From NCBI GenBank assembly GCA_903813345.2, contig CAIIXF020000001.1, forward strand, positions 13,473,915 through 13,537,914: a stretch of 64,000 bases of DNA. Direction: 5' to 3'. The translations under genes were made by a program, and so were the position numbers. Below, one piece after another: positions 31,501 to 48,000 of the stretch. This DNA is from Owenia fusiformis. Its lineage: Eukaryota; Annelida; Polychaeta; Sabellida; Oweniidae. The notes beneath the pieces are model-generated. The model had not been told where the DNA came from, did not search any database, and was given only the letters and a program-made list of their open reading frames with translations. The stretch's first letter is position 1. Each line of letters begins with the position of its first letter.

Positions 31501-31725
31501 CATAATACATTGTACCAGCAGACGTCACCTATCAAAGATTCACAGCAGCCAGAAGACTCTGACAGTTTTTCTAATAATCGATCATACTCTACTAAAGATC
31601 CTATTGCATCGAATGAGTTTGTGGATCAAATATTATCGCTTACTCAAAAGGAAGGCATGGTACCTCATAATCGGCACCTAGAAAATCAGCAGACATCTGA
31701 ACAATACAATGAATACATGCCCTGA
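22249..31725 (+). CDS. Gene B: multi-exon C2H2 zinc-finger protein, rotund/ZNF362-like (possible tandem paralogue of gene A)
   Basis: Five exons (22242-22558, 28339-28523, 28928-29054, 29515-29705, 30931-31725) join without a frame break. From ATG 22249 they total 1608 bases, i.e. 535 residues plus stop. Six good C2H2 fingers are present: HKCEVC, YRCSFC, FKCGVENC (C-x4-C), YQCTEC, IPCPYC and FECQIC. A seventh (YPCKFC...HVQMKNDDLH) has a wrong His-His spacing. Fingers 2-3 match gene A fingers 3-4 in order and in QLSH[IM]QQH and QL[AS]NL signatures. Finger 4 and finger 7 are each assembled across an intron, which supports the model. An IKME sumoylation-type site, a GRPPK basic patch, a Ser/Pro-rich tail and a PINLS (CtBP-like) motif suggest a nuclear regulator. 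Confidence 0.85.
23798..25333. mobile_element. TTAA-flanked foldback element, interrupted by a hAT element
   Basis: TTAA at 23794-23797 and 25334-25337 flank ends AGGAATATTCCTTGCC and GGCAAGGAATATTCCT. Long internal arms pair (for example GAGCTGCCATCTTTTAAGAT near 23940 against the complement near 25185). Without the insertion the element is about 610 bp. A second copy at 62748 lacks the insertion. TTAA target sites are typical of piggyBac-type transposases. Confidence 0.85.
23992..24909. mobile_element. hAT-type non-autonomous element, 918 bp, with 8-bp TSD
   Basis: Terminal inverted repeats CAGGGCACGCCTTAAGC / GGCTTAAGGCATGCCCTG. CTCTCAAC is duplicated at 23984-23991 and 24910-24917. The uninterrupted sister locus at 62934-62941 reads CTCTCCAC, an empty site that confirms both boundaries. 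An 8-bp TSD and CAGGG-type ends indicate the hAT superfamily. The interior has GACCAGC-rich repeats at 24770-24885 and no long ORF, so it depended on a transposase elsewhere. Confidence 0.9.
28339..28523 (+). CDS. Gene B exon 2: zinc fingers 3 and 4a
   Basis: The acceptor is ataattacag ending 28338; the donor is aag|gtacac at 28523/28524, phase 0. It encodes GERPFKC...NKTFVTQSSLQTHKNK. With the next exon's QH the H-x4-H pair of finger 4 is completed, whereas reading through the donor gives no finger. Confidence 0.88.
28524..28927. other. Gene B intron 2
   Basis: A 404-bp intron with GTACAC donor and TTTTTCAG acceptor. Nothing else was recognised. Confidence 0.7.
28928..29054 (+). CDS. Gene B exon 3: end of finger 4 and finger 5
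   Basis: The acceptor is gtttttcag ending 28927; the donor is gcaa|gtaagt at 29054/29055 (phase 1). It encodes QHNGEGNTDTIPCPYC...HVYHNH. The exon contains GTTGCCTTGGCAAC (28997-29010), by chance or otherwise a perfect X-box palindrome. Confidence 0.88.
29055..29514. other. Gene B intron 3
   Basis: A 460-bp AT-rich intron with no feature recognised. Confidence 0.7.
29515..29705 (+). CDS. Gene B exon 4: linker, finger 6 and start of finger 7
   Basis: The acceptor is ctttttacag ending 29514; the donor is gcaag|gtgagt at 29705/29706, phase 0. The frame is FSGKKSLHDFLPTGKP then RFECQICHKKYSHESGLLKH and ...VYPCK. Confidence 0.88.
29706..30930. other. Gene B intron 4
   Basis: It contains a relic of the TGTCACCACC repeat family at 29820-29885 (GGTTGGCGGTCAGTGTCTGT) and an AT-rich (TAATAA)n tract at 30850-30915. 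Overlapping open frames at 30446-30875 on both strands lack domains. Confidence 0.6.
30931..31725 (+). CDS. Gene B terminal exon: degenerate finger 7, Ser/Pro-rich tail, stop inside the first minisatellite unit
   Basis: The acceptor is aatgtttcag ending 30930. The exon begins FCEKIFAQEIHLIRH. The tail is rich in S, P, E and R and contains the repetitive SPSVSPRSPPISPP and SPINLS (PINLS 31468-31482). The last residues QQTSEQYNEYMP and the TGA at 31723-31725 are encoded by the first copy of the 39-bp repeat that fills the 3' UTR, so the present C-terminus and the array share sequence. Confidence 0.88.
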   Translation, partial: FCEKIFAQEIHLIRHVQMKNDDLHREAAQKFGNTLGLSCFDISKREAISETGRDRESLSPEPGSSHSEISRSERLTRDIYEENLEEPHNRLVIDMNFGKKRKLDELVRMDRTETEQVQRDYSDVDERRSPSVSPRSPPISPPFKQSIPDIRHFSHASHRTFFASSNVIVQSQPEADQISPINLSTNATVTHNTLYQQTSPIKDSQQPEDSDSFSNNRSYSTKDPIASNEFVDQILSLTQKEGMVPHNRHLENQQTSEQYNEYMP

Positions 31726-32351
31726 AGGCAAACATCTGGACAATACAATGAATACATGCCCTGAAGGCAGACATCTGGAAAATACAATAAATATGTGCCC
31801 TGAAGGCAGATATCTGGACAATACAATTAATACATGCCCTGAAGGCAGACTTCTGAACAATACAATGAATAAGTGCCCTGAAGGCAGACATCTAGACAAT
31901 TCAATGAATACATGCCCTGAAGGCAGACATCTGAACAATACAATGAATAAGTGCCCTGAAGGCAGACATCAGAACAATACAATGAATATGTGCCCTGAAG
32001 GGAGACATCTAGACAATTCAATGAAAACATGCTCGGAAGGCAGACATCTGGACAATACAATGAATACATGCCCTGAAGGCAGACATCAGAACAATACAAT
32101 GAATACGTGCCATGAAGGCAGACATCTGGACAATGCAATGAATACATGCCCTGAAGGCAGACATCTGAACAATACAATGAATATGTGCCCTGAAGGCAGA
32201 CATCTGGACAATACAATGAATACATGCCCTGAAGGCAGACATCTGAGCAATACAATGAATACATGCCCTGAAGGCAGACATCTGGGCAATACGTAACAAT
32301 GAATACATGCCCTGAAGGCAGTCATCTGAACAATACAATGAATACATGCCC
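31689..32351 (+). repeat. 39-bp coding-phase minisatellite (~17 copies) overlapping the gene B stop codon
   Basis: The unit contains AGACATCTGAACAATACAAT and GAATACATGCCCTGAAGGC. The length is a multiple of three. In the frame of gene B every unit has TGA; in the +1 frame it reads MNTCPEGRHLDNT about 15 times without a stop from 31709 to 32296, and all three minus-strand frames are partly open. A 5-base insertion near 32289 breaks the phase close to the end. Most likely it is a noncoding 3' UTR array born from the terminal codons. Confidence 0.9.
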
Positions 32352-35192: not shown

Positions 35193-35505
35193 TTTACAAT
35201 AAACATTGACCTAATTATTTAAAGGGTCAACCCCACAACTTATATTTTGGCCAAATGACCTAATTATTATATTTAATAAAATAATAATTGTATTTTCCCT
35301 ACTGTTTGCTTGGAACTGTAACAATCCAATGAATTGCTGCTGGTTAAATTGTATGACAACACTACACCTTCTCAACAGGGTGGCATGTAAATGCCAAATT
35401 TTAACAGGGTGAAGAACCTAGCCACTCTAATGGTGGGAGATCACTGTATTGCATTGTATTGCAAAATGATTCTGCTTAGGTTGTAAATAGAGTTTATTTG
35501 ATTAA

Positions 35506-36263
35506 GGTGCTATGGAAGTTAACAGGAAATGACAAAACAGGAAGTGACAATTTTTTTTGCATTTTTAGATATTTTTTGAATAAAGATAACAGAGTTCTGG
35601 TTTGACCTCCAGTCAATTTAACTATTTCCACATATCATTTACATGACCAGAATCACAATGTGCATGGTCAGAATGACCCTAAACATGATGAAATAACCTT
35701 TTTAGCCATTTGATAGTGTGACTGAAAAAAAGCTAAAAGTAGGAGCGTAGGGAAGGTCACTGAACAGAATCTTTTGAATTTTTCGTAAAATGTGCCCAAT
35801 ATATTGCTCTAAATGATACAATCTTTGAAAATTTGATATCATTCATAGAAAAAGAAAAAAAAATGAAAAAACTGATTTGAAGAGCGATCTATTTTCCTTT
35901 TTATGACCGCCATTTTTGTTTCGGACAATTTTCTAAAATTTCAAAGATTGTACTAGTTAGAGCATTATATTGGGCACATTTTCTGAAAAATTCAAAAGAT
36001 TCTGTTCAGTGACTATCCCTACGCTCCTACTTTTAGCTTTTTTTCAGTCACACTTTCAAAGGGCTAAAAAGGTTATTTCATCATGTTTAGGGTCATTCTG
36101 ACCATGCACATTGTGATCCTGGTCATGTAAATGATATGTGGAAATAGTTAAATTGACTGGAGGTCAAACCAGAACTCTGTTATCTTTATTCAAAAAATAT
36201 CTAAAAATGCAAAAAAAATTGTCACTTCCTGTTTTGTCATTTCCTGTTAACTTCCATAGCACC
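35506..36263. mobile_element. TTAA-flanked near-perfect palindromic element, 758 bp
   Basis: TTAA at 35502-35505 and 36264-36267. The ends GGTGCTATGGAAGTTAACAG and CTGTTAACTTCCATAGCACC are exact reverse complements. The arms run almost to the centre near 35885, with few mismatches, so a transcript or single strand would form a hairpin of about 370 bp. Copying or hairpin formation must be recent, as the arms are little diverged. Confidence 0.88.
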
Positions 36264-39061: not shown

Positions 39062-42000
39062 GTTAGTATAGTATAAAACATTGATTTTTTGATTGATTAC
39101 AGATGTAAATGTAACAATGATTGACTTATAAAATTGTACTGTAGAACATGCTATATTTTCTCGTGGAGTTTATGTGTGTAAATTCATCAATTTGATTCAT
39201 TATATATTTCACAAATTAGTGTATCAAGTTTTTTATGTCACCATCACAAGTGGTGACATGTTGTTATGGCCTCCTTTTTCTTAATGATGTTCAGTATTCA
39301 GCGGTTGGTGTTTGGCATCTGTAACAAATAGCTGGTGGTGGCATTTTGCATGTTAATGCATTATCTTAATTTACTCATTGACTATATTTAGTTTATTGAG
39401 GATCAATCACTGGGAATACAAACAAAGTAAAGAGGTGTCCTTAATGCCCATCCTCCACTTAGTCTTGGCAGATACCGTAAATGTCATGGGGGCATACATG
39501 GCAAGCCAGCTGGGCACACAGGTAGGACTGCATAGATATATATATATTATAGTACATGTATGTCTATATATCTGTGTGTATTTTTTTGTATTGATCATGA
39601 TATAGATGAGTTGACAGTCAATCAACCAATTACATTTTTTCATCATTACCTGTACCTACCCTACAGTTTCAAGTTATCCAATTTATTAAAGATTTATTGG
39701 CCTTTATCCCAAGATTTATGCTTTAAAATATCACAAAAATAAATATTATTACCAAATTGTAATACTGAAAGTGGTTGCAATAGATAGAGCGTAAAATGTT
39801 GATTGTGAATGGTCTCCTGGCACAAGAGTAAATCTAATTAGTCCTTTTCAAAAACGTTTACATAGTACCAGGCAATATCTTATTCCATGGTAGCATGGTT
39901 TGTCATAAAAATAAAAGAATCCACCCCCAATTTACTAATATGGTGCATTGAGCCTTTAATGTAACTCTCCTTGGAGTCTTCATCTGTTCATAATTAATGA
40001 TAATCAACAATCACAGGATTTTTTATGTTTTGTTTTTCTCATGTTTGTCGTGATGAATATGTTTATCACATTAAACACTGTGTATTTATTTGTTTCAGAT
40101 ACTTATTGGTTTATATTTTCTCTTGGCTGACATAGCTTTATGTTCCCACTATATTATATGCAATGTTCCTCTAACTTGGAGACCACAAATCATCTACAAT
40201 GCCCTCAAATGTAAGTTCTTTCATTCATTTTATTTCTCCGGGTACATTTTGAAACTGATATGCAGCCAGAATATAAGGTCCTACCAAAGATGCACAAACA
40301 TTTATTTTATCTGACAAAGTTGTACAAGTCATGAAATTTTTTTTCTTACCCAAAAGATTTTTCCTTCATAGTTACAGTATACTGTAAAACTTTGAATGCA
40401 TTTTTATACTTTGAATGCATTGTTATACTCTGAATGGATTGATTTCAATGAATGTATTGTTATGCTTTGAATGCATTATTATACTCTGAATGCATTGTGA
40501 TACTTTGAATGCATTGTTATACTTTGCATGCATTGTTATACTCTGAATGCATTGTTATACTTTGAATGCATTGTTATACTTTGCATGCATTGTTATACTC
40601 TGAATGCATTGCTAAACTTTGAATGTGTTATTATACTCTGAATGCATTGCTATACTCTGAATGCATTGCTATACTTTGAATGTGTTGTTATACTCTGAAT
40701 GCATTGTTATACTCTGAATGCAATGCTATACTTTGAATTTATTGTTATGCTTTGAATGCATTATTGTACTCTGAATGCATTGTGATACTCTGAATGCATT
40801 GTTATACTTTGCATGCATTGTTATACTCTGAATGCATTGTTATACTTTGAATGCATTGTTATACTTTGCATGCATTGTTATACTCTGAATGCATTGCTAA
40901 ACTTTGAATGTGTTATTATACTCTGAATGAATTGCTATACTTTGAATGTGTTGTTATACTCTGAATGCATTGTTATACTCTGAATGTATTGCTATACTTT
41001 GAATGTATTGTTATGCTTTGAATGCATTATTATACTCTGAATGCATTGTGATACTTTGAATGCATTGTTATACTCTGAATGCATTGTTATACTTTGAATG
41101 CATTGTTATACTCTGAATGCATTGTTATACTTTGCATGCATTGTTATACTCTGAATGCATTGTTATACTTTGAATGCATTGTTATACTCTGAATGTATTG
41201 TTATACTCTGAATGCATTGTTATACTTTGCATGCATTGTTATACTCTGAATGCATTGTTATACTCTGAATGCATTGTTATACTTTGAATGCATTGTTATA
41301 CTCTGAATGGATTGTTATACTTTGAATGCATTGTTATACTCTGAATGCATTGTTATACTCTGAATGCATTGTTATACTTTGCATGCATTGTTATACTCTG
41401 AATGTATTGTTATACTTTCTGTGCATTGTTATACTTACAATGCATTGCTTTACTTTCAGTGCATTGCTGGAAAAGAAAGTCTGGTGTCAGTGTTCTACTC
41501 CTGCCATGGGCTTTAACTGGGTTGTATACAAGCTACAGGTTGATCTATAATACTTCCATATCCACATATTCTTTACAATCTAATAGCAATAGGATCTTGT
41601 TGGGAGTCAACAATCAGGTAACTATGGGGATATAAAGTATTTTGTTTGTTTTGTTTCTTAATTTGTTATTATTTGATGTTGTCATGCAGTTGTTACATAT
41701 AGTCATTTATACACTAATGATTTTGAAGTTGTATTTTTCACTTGATTTTTCTCATTTTGCAAATTCTTTTGTTAAATAGTTCCATTTTCAACCTTCAATA
41801 TTTCACTCAAAGTTCCTTAACCATTCAGCTATTTCAGAATTTCCCTGACTCTCTTCTCTGAATTTTCCTTGATCGTGGTAACCCTGCATCAAACAATTGT
41901 TTCAGTAAAAGTCATAAGAAGGATTCCTCAATAAAGCCCACATTAATTCCTCTTATGAAATAACTTAAAATACTACACCATACCATATACCATACCATAC

Positions 42001-45000
42001 CATACCATACCATACCAAACCATATCATACCATACCACACCTTATCATACCACACCACACCATACCGTACCACACCAAATCATACCACACCTCACCATAC
42101 CATATTGTGTATCATACTTTTAGTCTGAAAAATGGTCCACTTTGATAGTCACAGTGGGTTATCTGTGTGGAGTAATCTCAACACTTCTTTACTGGGTTGC
42201 ATGTCTACCAAGAATCTGCAGAGTGGTAAGAATTACATATTAATGTCATATTATTTGTTTTGAAATATACACCATTCCTGGGGGTCAGTGGAAGAATTTA
42301 TTGACTGCTTTTACTCATTCAGTGTCCTATGTTGTGATTTACTGAGTTTCACTCATTGTTTATTATTTCATTATTTGTAATGTCATTATTTCTGTTTCCA
42401 GTTCCAAGAGAAAACATTCTCGCAGCGACAATGTACATTTTACCTGCTTTCTATCCCAGCCAATCTGTTCTACCTAATAGGAGTATTTACTCAGGCCACC
42501 TCTCATACCCTCATTTTACATACACTACCTTGGACTGTAGGGAGGTAAGTTTATTTACTCAGGCCACCTCCCACACCCTCGTTTTACATACTCACCTTGG
42601 ACTGTAGGGAGGTAAGTCCATTTACTCAGGCCACCTCCCACACCCTCGTTTTACATACTCACCTTGGACTGTAGGGAGGTAAGTCCATTTACTCAGGCCA
42701 CCTCCCACACCCTCGTTTTACATACTCACCTTGGACTGTAGGGAGGTAAGTGTTTTTACTCAGGCCACCTCCCACACCCTCGTTTTACATACTCACCTTG
42801 GACTGTAGGGAGGTAAGTTTATTTACTCAGGCCACCTCCCACACCCTCGTTTTACATACCAACCTTGGACTGTAGGGAGGTAAGTTTATTTACTCAGGCC
42901 ACCTCCCACACCCTCTTTTTACATACACTTCCTTGGACTGTATGAAGGTAAGTGTTTTTACTCAGGCCACCTCCCACACCATCATTTTACATACCCACCT
43001 TGGATTGTATGAAGGTAAGTCCATTTACTCAGGCCACCTCCCACACCCTCGTTTTACATACCCACCTTGGACTGTAGGGAGGTAAGTTTATTTACTCAGG
43101 CCACCTCCCACACCCTCGTTTTACATACTCACCTTGGACTGTAGGGAGGTAAGTTTATTTACTCAGGCCACCTCCCACATCCTCGTTTTACATACTCACC
43201 TTGGACTGTAGGGAGGTAAGTTTATTACTCAGGCCACCTCCCACACCCTCGTTTTACATACTCACCTTGGACTGTAGGGAGGTAAGTTTATTTACTCAGG
43301 CCACCTCCCACACCCTCGTTTTACATACTCACCTTGGACTGTAGGGAGGTAAGTCCATTTACTCAGGCCACCTCCCACACCTTCGTTTTACATACTCACC
43401 TTGGACTGTAGGGAGGTAAGTCCATTTACTCAGGCCACCTCCCACACCCTCGTTTTACATACCCCCCTTGGACTGTAGGGAGGTAAGTTTATTTACTCAG
43501 GCCACCTCCCACACCCTCGTTTTACATACCCCCTTGGACTGTAGGGAGGTAAGTTTATTTACTCAGGCCACCTCCCACACCCTCGTTTTACATACACTTC
43601 CTTGGACTGTATGAAGGTAAGTGTTTTTACTCAGGCCACCTCCCACACCCTCATTTTACATACCCACCTTGGATTGTATGAAGGTAAGTCCATTTACTCA
43701 GGCCACCTCCCACACCCTCGTTTTACATACTCACCTTGGACTGTAGGGAGGTAAGTCCATTTACTCAGGCCACCTCCCACACCCTCGTTTTACATACCCC
43801 CCTTGGACTGTAGGGAGGTAAGTTTATTTACTCAGGCCACCTCCCACACCCTCGTTCTACATACCCACCTTGGACTGTAGGGAGGTAAGTTTATTTACTC
43901 AGGCCACCTCCCACACCCTCGTTTTACATACTCACCTTGGACTGTAGGGAGGTAAGTCCATTTACTCAGGCCACCTCCCACACCCTCATTTTACATACTC
44001 ACCTTGGATTGTAGGGAGGTAAGTCCATTTACTCAGGCCACCTCCCACACCCTCGTTCTACATACTCACATTGGACTGTAGGGAGGTAAGTCCATTTACT
44101 CAGGCCACCTCCCACACCCTCGTTTTACATACTCACCTTGGACTGTAGGGAGGTATGTTTATTTACTCAGGCCACCTCCCACACCCTCGTTCTACATACC
44201 CACCTTGGACTGTAGGGAGGTAAGTTTATTTACTCAGGCCACCTCCAACACCCTCTTTTTACATACTCACCTTGGACTGTAGGGAGGTAAGTCCATTTAC
44301 TCAGGCCACCTCCCACACCCTCCTTCTACATACCCCCCTTGGACTGTAGGGAGGTAAGTTTATTTACTCAGGCCACCTCCCACACCCTCATTTTACATAC
44401 ACTACCTTGGATTGTATGGAGGTAGGTCCGTTTACTCAGGCCACCTCCCACACCCTCGTTTTACATACTCACCTTGGACTGTAGGGAGGTAAGTTTATTT
44501 ACTCAGGCCACCTCCCACACCCTCGTTCTACATACCCACCTTGGACTGTAGGAGGTACGTTTATTTACTCAGGACACCTCCCACACCCTTGTTTTACATA
44601 CTCACCTTGGACTGTAGGGAGGTACGTTTATTTACTCAGGACACCTCCCACACCCTCGTTTTACATACTCACCTTTGACTGTAGGGAGGTAAGTTTATTT
44701 ACTCAGGCCACCTCCCACACCCTCATTTTACATACACTACCTTGGATTGTATGGAGGTAGGTCCGTTTACTCAGGCCACCTCCCACACCCTCGTTTTACA
44801 TACTCACCTTGGACTGTAGGGAGGTAAGTTTATTTACTCAGGCCACCTCCCACACCCTCATTTTACATACACTACCTTGGATTGTATGGAGGTAGGTCCG
44901 TTTACTCAGGCCACCTCCCACACCCTCGTTTTACATACTCACCTTGGACTGTAGGGAGGTAAGTTTATTTACTCAGGCCACCTCCCACACCCTCGTTCTA

Positions 45001-48000
45001 CATACCCACCTTGGACTGTAGGAGGTACGTTTATTTACTCAGGACACCTCCCACACCCTCGTTTTACATACACTACCTTGGATTGTATGGAGGTAGGTCC
45101 GTTTACTCAGGCCATCTCCCACACCCTCGTTTTACATACTCACCTTGGACTGTAGGGAGGTAAGTTTATTTACTCAGGCCACCTCCCACACCCTCGTTTT
45201 ACATACTCACCTTGGACTGTAGGGAGGAAAGTTTATTTACTCAGGCCATTTCCCACACCCTCGTTTTACATACTCACCTTGGACTGTAGGGAGGTAAGTT
45301 TATTTACTCAGGCCACCTCCCACACCCTCATTTTACATACTCCCCTTGGACTGTAGGGAGGTAAGTTTATTTACTCAGGCCACCTCCCACACACTCTTTC
45401 ATATCCTTTGTATATTTCTGTTTAAAGCTAAACACAGAGTAATTCCTCTTTGTATCCACTCCAGTTTTTAAACAGTGCAATTATTATATACTTGGACATA
45501 GAGTGATGCATCAGGTTTTTAAGATGGGCAGAGCAGATACATTTTTGGATTTACATGTGTATTGTTATATCATTGTTATAGGCTTGGTCTCATTGGTATT
45601 GACATTGGAATGTTGCTACAGATTCTACAGAATCGTAGAAAACAAGATGGCTGGCATGAGATTGATGAGAGTGTTGTCTCATTACTCAGGTACTTATGAT
45701 AAATACTCGGTCAATATGATGTTTTTCTTGGCCAATATCATAAAATTCATATTCCACCCCTCCCATTAAATAAACTGTATTTGCGTGTTTCTTATGTGGA
45801 GAAAATTAGATCGCATGAAAGATTTTTGAATGATCCATGAATCATGACATAAAAATGATTTGTTTATGTAGTACGATTTTAGGACAAAAGGTGCTGCACC
45901 ATGTTTTAGAAAATCAGAAAATTAAATGCCACCCTGTCGAAAATCTGCATGCATCCTGTAAAAATTGTAAACTTCTGTAATGAGATAATTTGACAAGAAT
46001 CCTTTTGTACATTTGGAGATCACTGCATATAGTGACATTCAGATTTATAATTAAGTTTTTACATTTATTTTTTGACCATCAGTCTGTCAAAATAGCCTTA
46101 CCGTACTAAAAAAACATTGCTATCAGAGGGTATCAAGACGTTTCACCCCCTGGACGTGTTTCACCCCTAGACTGTTCACCCTTTAGACTTTCCACCCCCT
46201 GGACATTTCACTCCCCGTAGACATTTCATCCCCTGGAAGTTTCCCCCTGGACATTTCACCCCCTAGACATTTCACCCCTAGACTTTTCATCCCTTAGACA
46301 TTTCACCCCTAGACATTTCACCCATTAGACATTTCACCCCCTAGACATTTCACCCCTTAGAAATTTCGCCCCTTAGACGTTTCACCCCAATATACAGTTT
46401 GTGTACATGTACAATGTCATGGTTTGGGTTATTAGTGAATTTTTACTGAATTAACATGAGTATACTGATTTCTTTTCTAAGTAACATTGACTGGAAAAGG
46501 TCATAGAAAATAAAACCACAAATATTGGTACAAATAAGTGTAAAAAATTTGCACTTTGCACTGATTAAACATGCTAGCCTCTAATTGCCTAGATAATCCA
46601 TTCCCTTGTTATCAATTGCATTATTAAAAAGCGACTGATTCATTATTATTTTTTAGATTTAGAAAATTAATCCTGTTTATATTTCTCATAAATTTTTTCT
46701 AGTAAACTAATGATCGGAAACTGGACGCAATTATTAGTTGTTGCCTAACGGGAGTTTAAATCTTCTGCGCCGTTTCACTACTTACTAGAAACTCTTAAGC
46801 CCATAAAGCTGGAAAAGACTTGCATAAGCATATGACAGAATTAATCTCTTTATGGTAATTGTCATATAGTTTAGGTGGGGCTTTATAAAAAATGCCCCAG
46901 CTGCTAAGGAGGTAGCAAGGGGAGGAGGTGGGAAAGTAAAGCTTACTTACTTGTAATCAGCTTAATAACAATGTAAATCCAGGAAAGAACAGCGGAGCTT
47001 TCAGCGGAAAGTACGGAGGTTCAGGTGACGCTATTATAATTACCCTTCTTCCTGGCTTCTGATTGGTTGACCTACTTTGAAGAGTTTTGGCGGTCAGTTT
47101 GAAAAACTGGCGCAGAAGACAACTCCTTAACAAATTTTCTCTATATAAACCCATTATAAATTATAATGGTTATTTATATTTCTCATAAATTTTTTCTAGT
47201 AAACTAATGATCGGAAACTGGACGCAATTATTAGTTGTTGCCTAACGGGAGTTTAAATCTTCTGCGCCGTTTCACTACTTACTAGAAACTCTTAAGCCCA
47301 TAAAGCTGGAAAAGACTTGCATAAGCATATGACAGAATTAATCTCTTTATGGTAATTGTCATATAGTTTAGGTGGGGCTTTATAAAAAATGCCACAAAAA
47401 CATTATGATGGTAATCAGAATGTTGCATTAGTCTTATGGGAAACAATTAGAATAATAAGATTTTTGGTTGCACATTTCCTGATGACCTGATTTAATCAAT
47501 AAGCTGTAATTTAGGTTATGATGTGTGATTATTTAGATTATTTGTGAGCAAGAGTTTAGAAGGATTCAAAACCTATGGAAACAGTATAAAGAAGATGAAC
47601 TTACAACTTCAAATCTTCTGCGTTCATGCAGTAAACCCCACTGTTACCTCTAAACATTGGAACATAACTTGTTATTTGTTAAGTGCAACATGTTCAATAG
47701 ACACATTTCATAACTAATATGTATATGAAATCTTACAACCGGTATTTAAAATTCTTAGTACCTCAAGCTTTTGAATCTAAAGTTTCTGAAAATCGATGCA
47801 TATGTTTTTTTGCTTGTAATGTAAGGCCTATGATAAAAAACAGTAAGAATGATCTAAAACTTGTTTTTTGTATTAATAGCAGTTGTGTTTAATAACCAAT
47901 TCTTTGAAGAACTGAAATGGATAATGAATTGATTGGACCTCACTTCAAACCCTGAAAACTGTACATGGAAAAATAAGTGAATTACTAGTGACTTACAGTA

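Follow-up and report, generated by a model that had tools for sequence, protein, structure and literature searches.

Tandem repeats that lie across exon-intron boundaries, called mirages, are known from amphioxus, where the Adh3 mirage is reportedly due to Canestro et al. 2002. The available parts of two reports describe them at Adh3, two globin genes and troponin C and, less perfectly, at PGBD5 (PMC3087553, PMC3902484). In these accounts, 5′ and 3′ boundaries are both hit, AG/GT signals stand in many but not all copies, edge copies escape homogenization, and copy number differs between haplotypes (PMC3087553, PMC3902484). The Adh3 data and globin reverse transcription PCR suggest that splicing is undisturbed by the mirages, according to the portion available (PMC3087553). 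Here we describe a 67-bp tandem array in the annelid Owenia fusiformis. It lies at 42484-45396 on the plus strand of a 64,000-nucleotide stretch (the window), where it begins at the end of exon 6 of a putative TMEM44-like gene and runs into the intron.

Performing Tandem Repeats Finder (TRF) analysis on the window, we find a period of 67, 43.4 copies, 92% matches and a score of 4846, and the array is therefore not a product of chance. Each 67-bp unit joins 59 nt of the TMEM44-like coding exon end to the first 8 nt of the intron. Exon 6 occupies 42402-42544 (143 nt, plus strand), with the acceptor ttctgtttccag in front and the donor GTAAGT behind it (donor 1, 42545-42550, plus strand), and unit 1 contains the final 59 nt of this exon (42486-42544). 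For the alignment, unit boundaries were set at ACTCAG(G/A), giving 43 complete units and one partial unit. All 43 spacings of this cut measured 66-68 nt, so an acceptor-like end is present in every unit. The donor hexamers of the complete units read GTAAGT (34), GTAGGT (4), GTACGT (3), GTATGT (1) and GAAAGT (1), the last being the single dead donor, in unit 41 (45227-45232, plus strand); GT is retained in 42 of the 43, unit 1 included. The 42 complete intronic copies (42557-45372, plus strand) keep GTAAGT in 33 cases and GT in 41. A first-pass annotation had described about 43 copies of an exon end at 67-bp spacing, the unit being the last 59 bases of exon 6 plus the donor, with most donors kept and an acceptor-like end in each copy, and this description proved accurate. 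Reading the minus strand of 42484-45396 by eye, we also noticed that the reverse-complemented common unit carries a donor-like AAG/GTGAGTATG and an acceptor-like CTTACCTCCCTACAG.

Three features of mirages that a sequence can reveal are found here: the unit spans the boundary; the authentic boundary is outermost, unit 1 being the coding one at the 5′ edge and the remaining copies intronic; and many, not all, units keep the AG/GT signals. The boundary-spanning unit, the partial retention of AG/GT and the involvement of both 5′ and 3′ boundaries are shared with the amphioxus mirages at Adh3, BflGb6/BflGb9, PGBD5 and troponin C, as the available text on those genes has them. Judged by this anatomy, the array is a member of the mirage family, and its kind is known. 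It has 43 copies, in contrast to the 6 and 3 of two BflGb6 haplotypes in the portion available. Unlike the amphioxus cases, the host is an annelid and not a cephalochordate, recurrence was sampled over the genome, and the array is known from sequence alone. As far as the literature searched shows, the case suggests an extension of mirages beyond cephalochordates. A search for Owenia with minisatellite, which did not reach most subscription journals, found no literature, and the available parts of PMC11371463 and PMC2206037 added nothing on boundary arrays. Searching the genome with the unit, we obtained 43 matches, all at the TMEM44-like locus; the search reports best candidates only, and a missing match is no proof of rarity. 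With the best-candidate matches confined in this way to the array locus, an introner-like or dispersed element is not supported.

The assignment of the host gene was approached by reading ten exons, of which exons 5-10 form a single open frame. Exon 7 (45582-45689, plus strand) carries on the frame from donor 1. A single comparison with human TMEM44, for which we used a sequence presumed to be correct, gave E = 3e-9, and the alignment crosses the junction of exons 6 and 7. Against Pfam, the window protein showed a weak PQ-loop match only (E = 0.016, below cut-off), and a search against solved structures found no relative (best E = 0.022). The gene is thus probably TMEM44-like. Phase 0 at the end of exon 4 (41460-41617) conflicts with exon 5 (42155-42225), which requires one carried base; because of this mismatch, a small exon may have been missed between them. 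Such an exon is probably missing, and the name exon 6 is provisional.

The array takes up 2,852 of the 3,037 bases of the intron (about 94%). This share would suit a young intron born of the tandem duplication itself, as in the AGGT model, which the available part of one report gives as established in other genes, with a potato RdRp case (PMC4974935). Both involve a tandem duplication over a splice boundary, but in that model one duplication yields a new intron, whereas here a long array sits inside an intron. Moreover, the 185 intron bases at the 3′ end, acceptor included, lie outside the array, and exon 7 holds no copy of the unit. We regard a young intron as distinctly unlikely.

Which of the many donors is used is a matter of frame and position. 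Donor 1 alone joins exon 7 in frame and without a stop. Reading past it, we meet ..GGG AGG TAA (..TVG R stop), an immediate stop for any later donor, and a 49-nt unit taken up as a pseudo-exon shifts the frame. The first-pass annotation had correctly seen that dozens of donors are near-equal and that the first alone preserves the reading frame. It had attributed the harm of inclusion to frame shift only, which holds for the pseudo-exon but is not the whole effect for the later donors with their immediate stop. The predicted U1 pairing energy, calculated with what we take to be the U1 sequence, is -10.7 kcal/mol for donor 1 and the same in 28 of the 42 copies. Because of this equality, donor choice is not explicable by local strength. 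What sets donor 1 apart is its position: of all the donors it is closest to the exon 6 acceptor and most distant from the acceptor that follows. According to the available part of an alternative splice site study, when introns are large, preference goes to the splice sites that lie nearest each other across the exon (PMC9225289). We infer that donor 1 is the one used by the cell.

The array is very probably a mirage in which the exon 6 donor segment was duplicated in tandem, the copies grew into the intron, and splicing bypasses them at near-neutral cost. The growth would have proceeded by slippage or unequal exchange. By exon definition of a 143-nt exon before a 3,037-nt intron, the spliceosome would match the acceptor of exon 6 (42402) to whichever donor lies closest on the far side of the exon, so that the 42 downstream copies would be bypassed and the array removed as intron. 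It would most likely be selectively near-neutral, a tolerated by-product made harmless by exon definition, and the same duplication process has probably acted at many genes of this genome. If the gene works, the array would reveal the distance rule of the spliceosome. Splicing laboratories build such multi-donor constructs by hand; each array of this kind is a natural experiment, with near-identical donors in a like local context that differ in their distance to both acceptors.

The first-pass annotation had proposed that the array may serve as a donor decoy, a pseudo-exon source or a length-polymorphic splicing modifier. Strong donors might titrate U1 or bring about a regulated retention of the exon-array stretch, with the immediate stop followed by decay. 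The 28 copies equal to donor 1 in energy and the GT kept in 41 of 42 would fit such a role, as would the TAA after donor 1, which makes any downstream choice unproductive. The donor hexamer also has somewhat fewer non-consensus cells than average (9 versus a mean of 12.6 over six-column windows of the alignment). However, this count is not exceeded in 38 of the 63 windows, and four distinct hexamer variants occur among the 42 copies, a number equalled or undercut in 46 of the 63. The acceptor-like hexamer shows zero variants, but it is the motif used for cutting, and 4 of the 63 windows are equally clean. This ACTCAG belongs to the normal coding part of exon 6 (..V F T Q..) and came to lie beside the donor by duplication. 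The idea that conserved donors point to a function was rejected, the hexamer being not clearly cleaner than other six-column windows; no protection of the donor is visible in the variation among the copies. Since this simple test gives no sign of selection for donors, a decoy function finds no support, and the same anatomy stands at unrelated genes, as given below. A modifier or decoy role is very unlikely in our estimate.

A misassembly of the array or of its copy number would be conceivable, long near-identical arrays being error-prone. The 42 intronic copies nevertheless comprise 28 distinct sequences, and other loci repeat the anatomy, and we give an artefact hardly any credence. In human segmental duplications, variable minisatellites at boundaries can alter gene structure, as compared with transcripts in the available part of one study (PMC2812944). 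The present array is likewise a minisatellite at an exon-intron boundary, here read from the genome assembly only.

Exon-boundary arrays recur at many genes of this annelid genome, and this recurrence is the new part of the present work. We performed a strict search for three consecutive (C/G)AGGTAAGT words at spacings of 48-77, 78-107 and 18-47 bp, with the reversed word as control. Overlapping matches numbered 336 versus 165, 194 versus 128 and 115 versus 105, respectively. The looser word GGTAAGT gave 999 + 569 against 569 + 677 for its reverse. These counts led us to reject the idea that arrays are strongly enriched in donor words; because the counts are of overlapping matches, the enrichment is only modest. 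Among the matches listed, we distinguished 38 clusters (13, 10 more and 15 more), this locus included; the sample favours low contig numbers, since it comes from those listed matches. For the other 37, the sequence was taken and the 5′ edge read, an edge that was not reached in L041 (L numbers denote loci, C numbers contigs). We called an exon end where unit 1 reads as the end of a coding exon, with an acceptor upstream and a donor at its end; L036 has a possible start codon upstream instead of an acceptor. By this call, 27 of the 38 clusters begin at a coding exon end. Fourteen have homology support at E < 1e-3, the window gene has its comparison with a sequence presumed correct, one is marginal (L032), and eleven were called by reading. 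The paralogues L016 and L017 are counted separately, L017 having been scanned for families only via L016.

Homology here means a match of the exon, or of the exon with its neighbour, to a known family or solved protein. The matched genes are of unrelated kinds: tetraspanin (L005, 6.5e-11), Muted (L006, 5.9e-15), NIF phosphatase (L007, 4.9e-6 with the exon alone), Cep192 (L014, domain 1 at 3.8e-5 in the exon and domain 2 at 5e-10 in the next exon), Doa10 (L015, 5.6e-9, across the junction), KIAA0895-like (L020, 1.6e-7), kringle (L022, 6.6e-6), Rab27A (L024, 3.1e-9), an Il2rg-family protein (L025, 3.2e-8), B56 (L029, 4.7e-11), COR-B (L037, 3.4e-4) and VPS13A (L043, 8.1e-5). One MOV10-like helicase gene (L018, C5:1751800-1758800) bears two arrays, of 72 and 63 bp, with matches to MOV-10 (5.9e-9) and AAA (1.7e-8). 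The marginal case is OTCase (L032, 0.0037). The looser search, with 10 clusters among the matches listed, gave exon ends at this locus, L005-L007, L008 and L010, and none at L009; the clusters at C1:21621851, 36706481 and 48509898 were left out. L008 and L010 stand outside the 38-cluster sample and are firm (MBT, 1e-32; mTOR, 2.6e-16). Scanning the typed exons against Pfam, we found no family for L012, L013, L015, L016, L020, L021, L023, L026, L033, L035, L036, L040 or L043, and only chance-level families for the L010 exon. L010, L015, L020 and L043, without Pfam support, yet matched solved structures, while L036 had no match among them. The calls by reading are L012, L013, L016, L017, L021, L023, L026, L033, L035, L036 and L040. 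In L011, L019, L027, L028, L030, L031, L034, L038, L039, L041 and L042, the array does not begin at an exon end or none is evident; that of L027 starts 87 bp past a real exon donor (methyltransferase exon, E = 3.6e-6).

The reversed-word control showed an evident coding boundary in 0 of 8 clusters among the matches listed, as judged by open reading frames at the edges, with no family search, and leaving aside the lower edge of L070 and most of the upper edge of L068. A further donor-born array, with GTGAGT and a 60-bp unit, happens to lie in the control piece L068, so the strict word captures only part of the class. Repetition of the anatomy at unrelated genes, which tolerated duplications would be expected to show, favours a general mutational process, and mirages at many genes of this annelid suggest a wider phenomenon than the amphioxus one. 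Boundary arrays are also a warning for gene annotators.

We then read the frame of 30 donor-born arrays, namely 26 of the 27 exon-end arrays with L008, L010, L045 and L068. In 22, a stop precedes donor 2. Of the remaining eight, three would shift the frame, and five have an open unit whose period is a multiple of three; in 25 of the 30, then, any donor but the first would stop or shift the frame. The coding copy is the exon-proximal one in each array, exons having been sought only at the 5′ edge and the next exon seen for few. Period modulo 3 distributes as 12, 10 and 8. The exon share of the unit averaged 0.62 over the 30 (Kolmogorov-Smirnov p = 0.064); since the ungapped script undercounts L017 and the window unit (18 versus 59 nt), we make no claim of exon-skewed units.

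These figures bear on whether the copies of the TMEM44-like gene act as alternative donors or pseudo-exons at an appreciable level. Turri, Cuin and Porter (1995) reportedly described the human 6-16 minisatellite as a source of multiple splice donors. In the available part of another report, two downstream repeat units of 6-16/IFI6 serve as donors and yield isoforms (PMC4526556). Both tandem repeats offer several splice donors; unlike that case, downstream donor use here would truncate the protein. The 6-16/IFI6 precedent, ACTCAG in every unit and GT in 41 of the 42 complete copies would speak for such use at the TMEM44-like gene. On the other side stand the immediate stop before any later donor, the frame shift by a 49-nt pseudo-exon and the absence of a multiple-of-three preference in the 30 periods. 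We consider appreciable use to be highly doubtful. Because the 6-16/IFI6 repeat donors are used, the silence of the copies is a point to be tested, not assumed.

Several points weigh against taking the array as a bypassed, near-neutral mirage that exemplifies a recurrent class. The excess of the donor word over its reversed control is only modest, eleven of the 27 exon-end calls among the matches listed were made by reading alone, and, among the 14 matches with homology support, those to kringle, COR-B and Cep192_D1 fall below the Pfam curated cut-off, as short exons may. On average, 7.4 columns separate unit 1 from the copies, versus 5.2 among the copies themselves, and two columns are private to it. 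Ordered by mean distance, however, unit 1 is only the 8th of 43, which gives no clear sign that the edge escaped homogenization. The use of donor 1 was deduced from coding potential, and partial use of intron-proximal donors could produce unproductive mRNA that is invisible to this approach. The use of downstream 6-16/IFI6 repeats as donors, in the part available, means that such copies are not always silent (PMC4526556).

The five open, multiple-of-three arrays are L005 (tetraspanin), L018b (AAA helicase), L021 (an acidic protein), L025 (Il2rg-family) and L068 (ankyrin-like by eye). Within a genome-wide class, these few (5 of 30) might act as donor ladders that add repeats of 14 to 21 residues, a proposal we hold to be unlikely. 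If it is true, mirages would be a source of new exon sequence and of length polymorphism in proteins, and the rest would be natural tests of exon definition. On the minus strand of L068 (C4:130100-132200), we read an exon ending ..YHLFNL followed by the 60-bp array with GTGAGT donors. Its read-through is open, and donor choice could add 20-residue steps. At 1600-2101 of L069 (C4:1164100-1166200), an open 63-bp (21-residue) repeat, LGPEMFRLPDDTPIKVNKTYS, is either a coding repeat or a boundary array.

A mirror-image case lies in intron 3 of the same gene, where TRF reports a 19-bp array of 56.8 copies (40389-41466, plus strand). Its last unit comprises the acceptor and the first 7 nt of exon 4 (which starts at 41460) and matches the copy consensus at 15 of 19 positions, and AG is kept in 0 of 55 copies. 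This absence of AG in all 55 copies was the origin of a rule that donor arrays are tolerated and acceptor arrays are not. Searching with the acceptor word TTTTCAG gave counts of 788 + 720 versus 142 + 106, the rows listed being mostly one dispersed repeat. Six of the seven other clusters listed were read: L044 and L046 are acceptor-born, L045 is donor-born, and L047-L049 are neither; C1:21946057, resembling L048, was left out. In L044 and L046, copies with an intact TTTTCAG make up an array that has an apparent exon start at its 3′ edge, and the rule was rejected on these two loci. Their family matches are VWA for L046 (E = 8.9e-4, below cut-off) and only DUF1697 for L044 (E = 0.0032). In the array of L045 (C1:20246900-20248500), every 49-bp unit carries a TTTTCAG acceptor, most of them also a GTAGGC donor, and the array starts at an apparent coding exon end for which Pfam returned no family.

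The window is very rich in minisatellites, eleven TRF array regions covering 8,488 of its 64,000 bases. A 39-bp array (13 codons; 31689-32351, plus strand, TRF) begins with a unit close to the last 11 codons plus the TGA (31723-31725) of an upstream zinc-finger gene. Its copies would occupy the 3′ untranslated region of that gene, a putative stop-codon version of the boundary theme. By eye, we noticed a long inverted repeat at about 35480-36260, which has the look of a hairpin element and 15-bp TRF units that mirror each other at 35521 and 36219, and a sequence of about 200 bp repeated directly at about 46680-46900 and 47170-47390. Elsewhere in the genome, C6:27033687-27048438 holds a cluster of Eryth_link_C, presumably the annelid erythrocruorin linker and a family for which 14 control genomes gave no match over cut-off, with three matches over cut-off, one of them with an internal stop.

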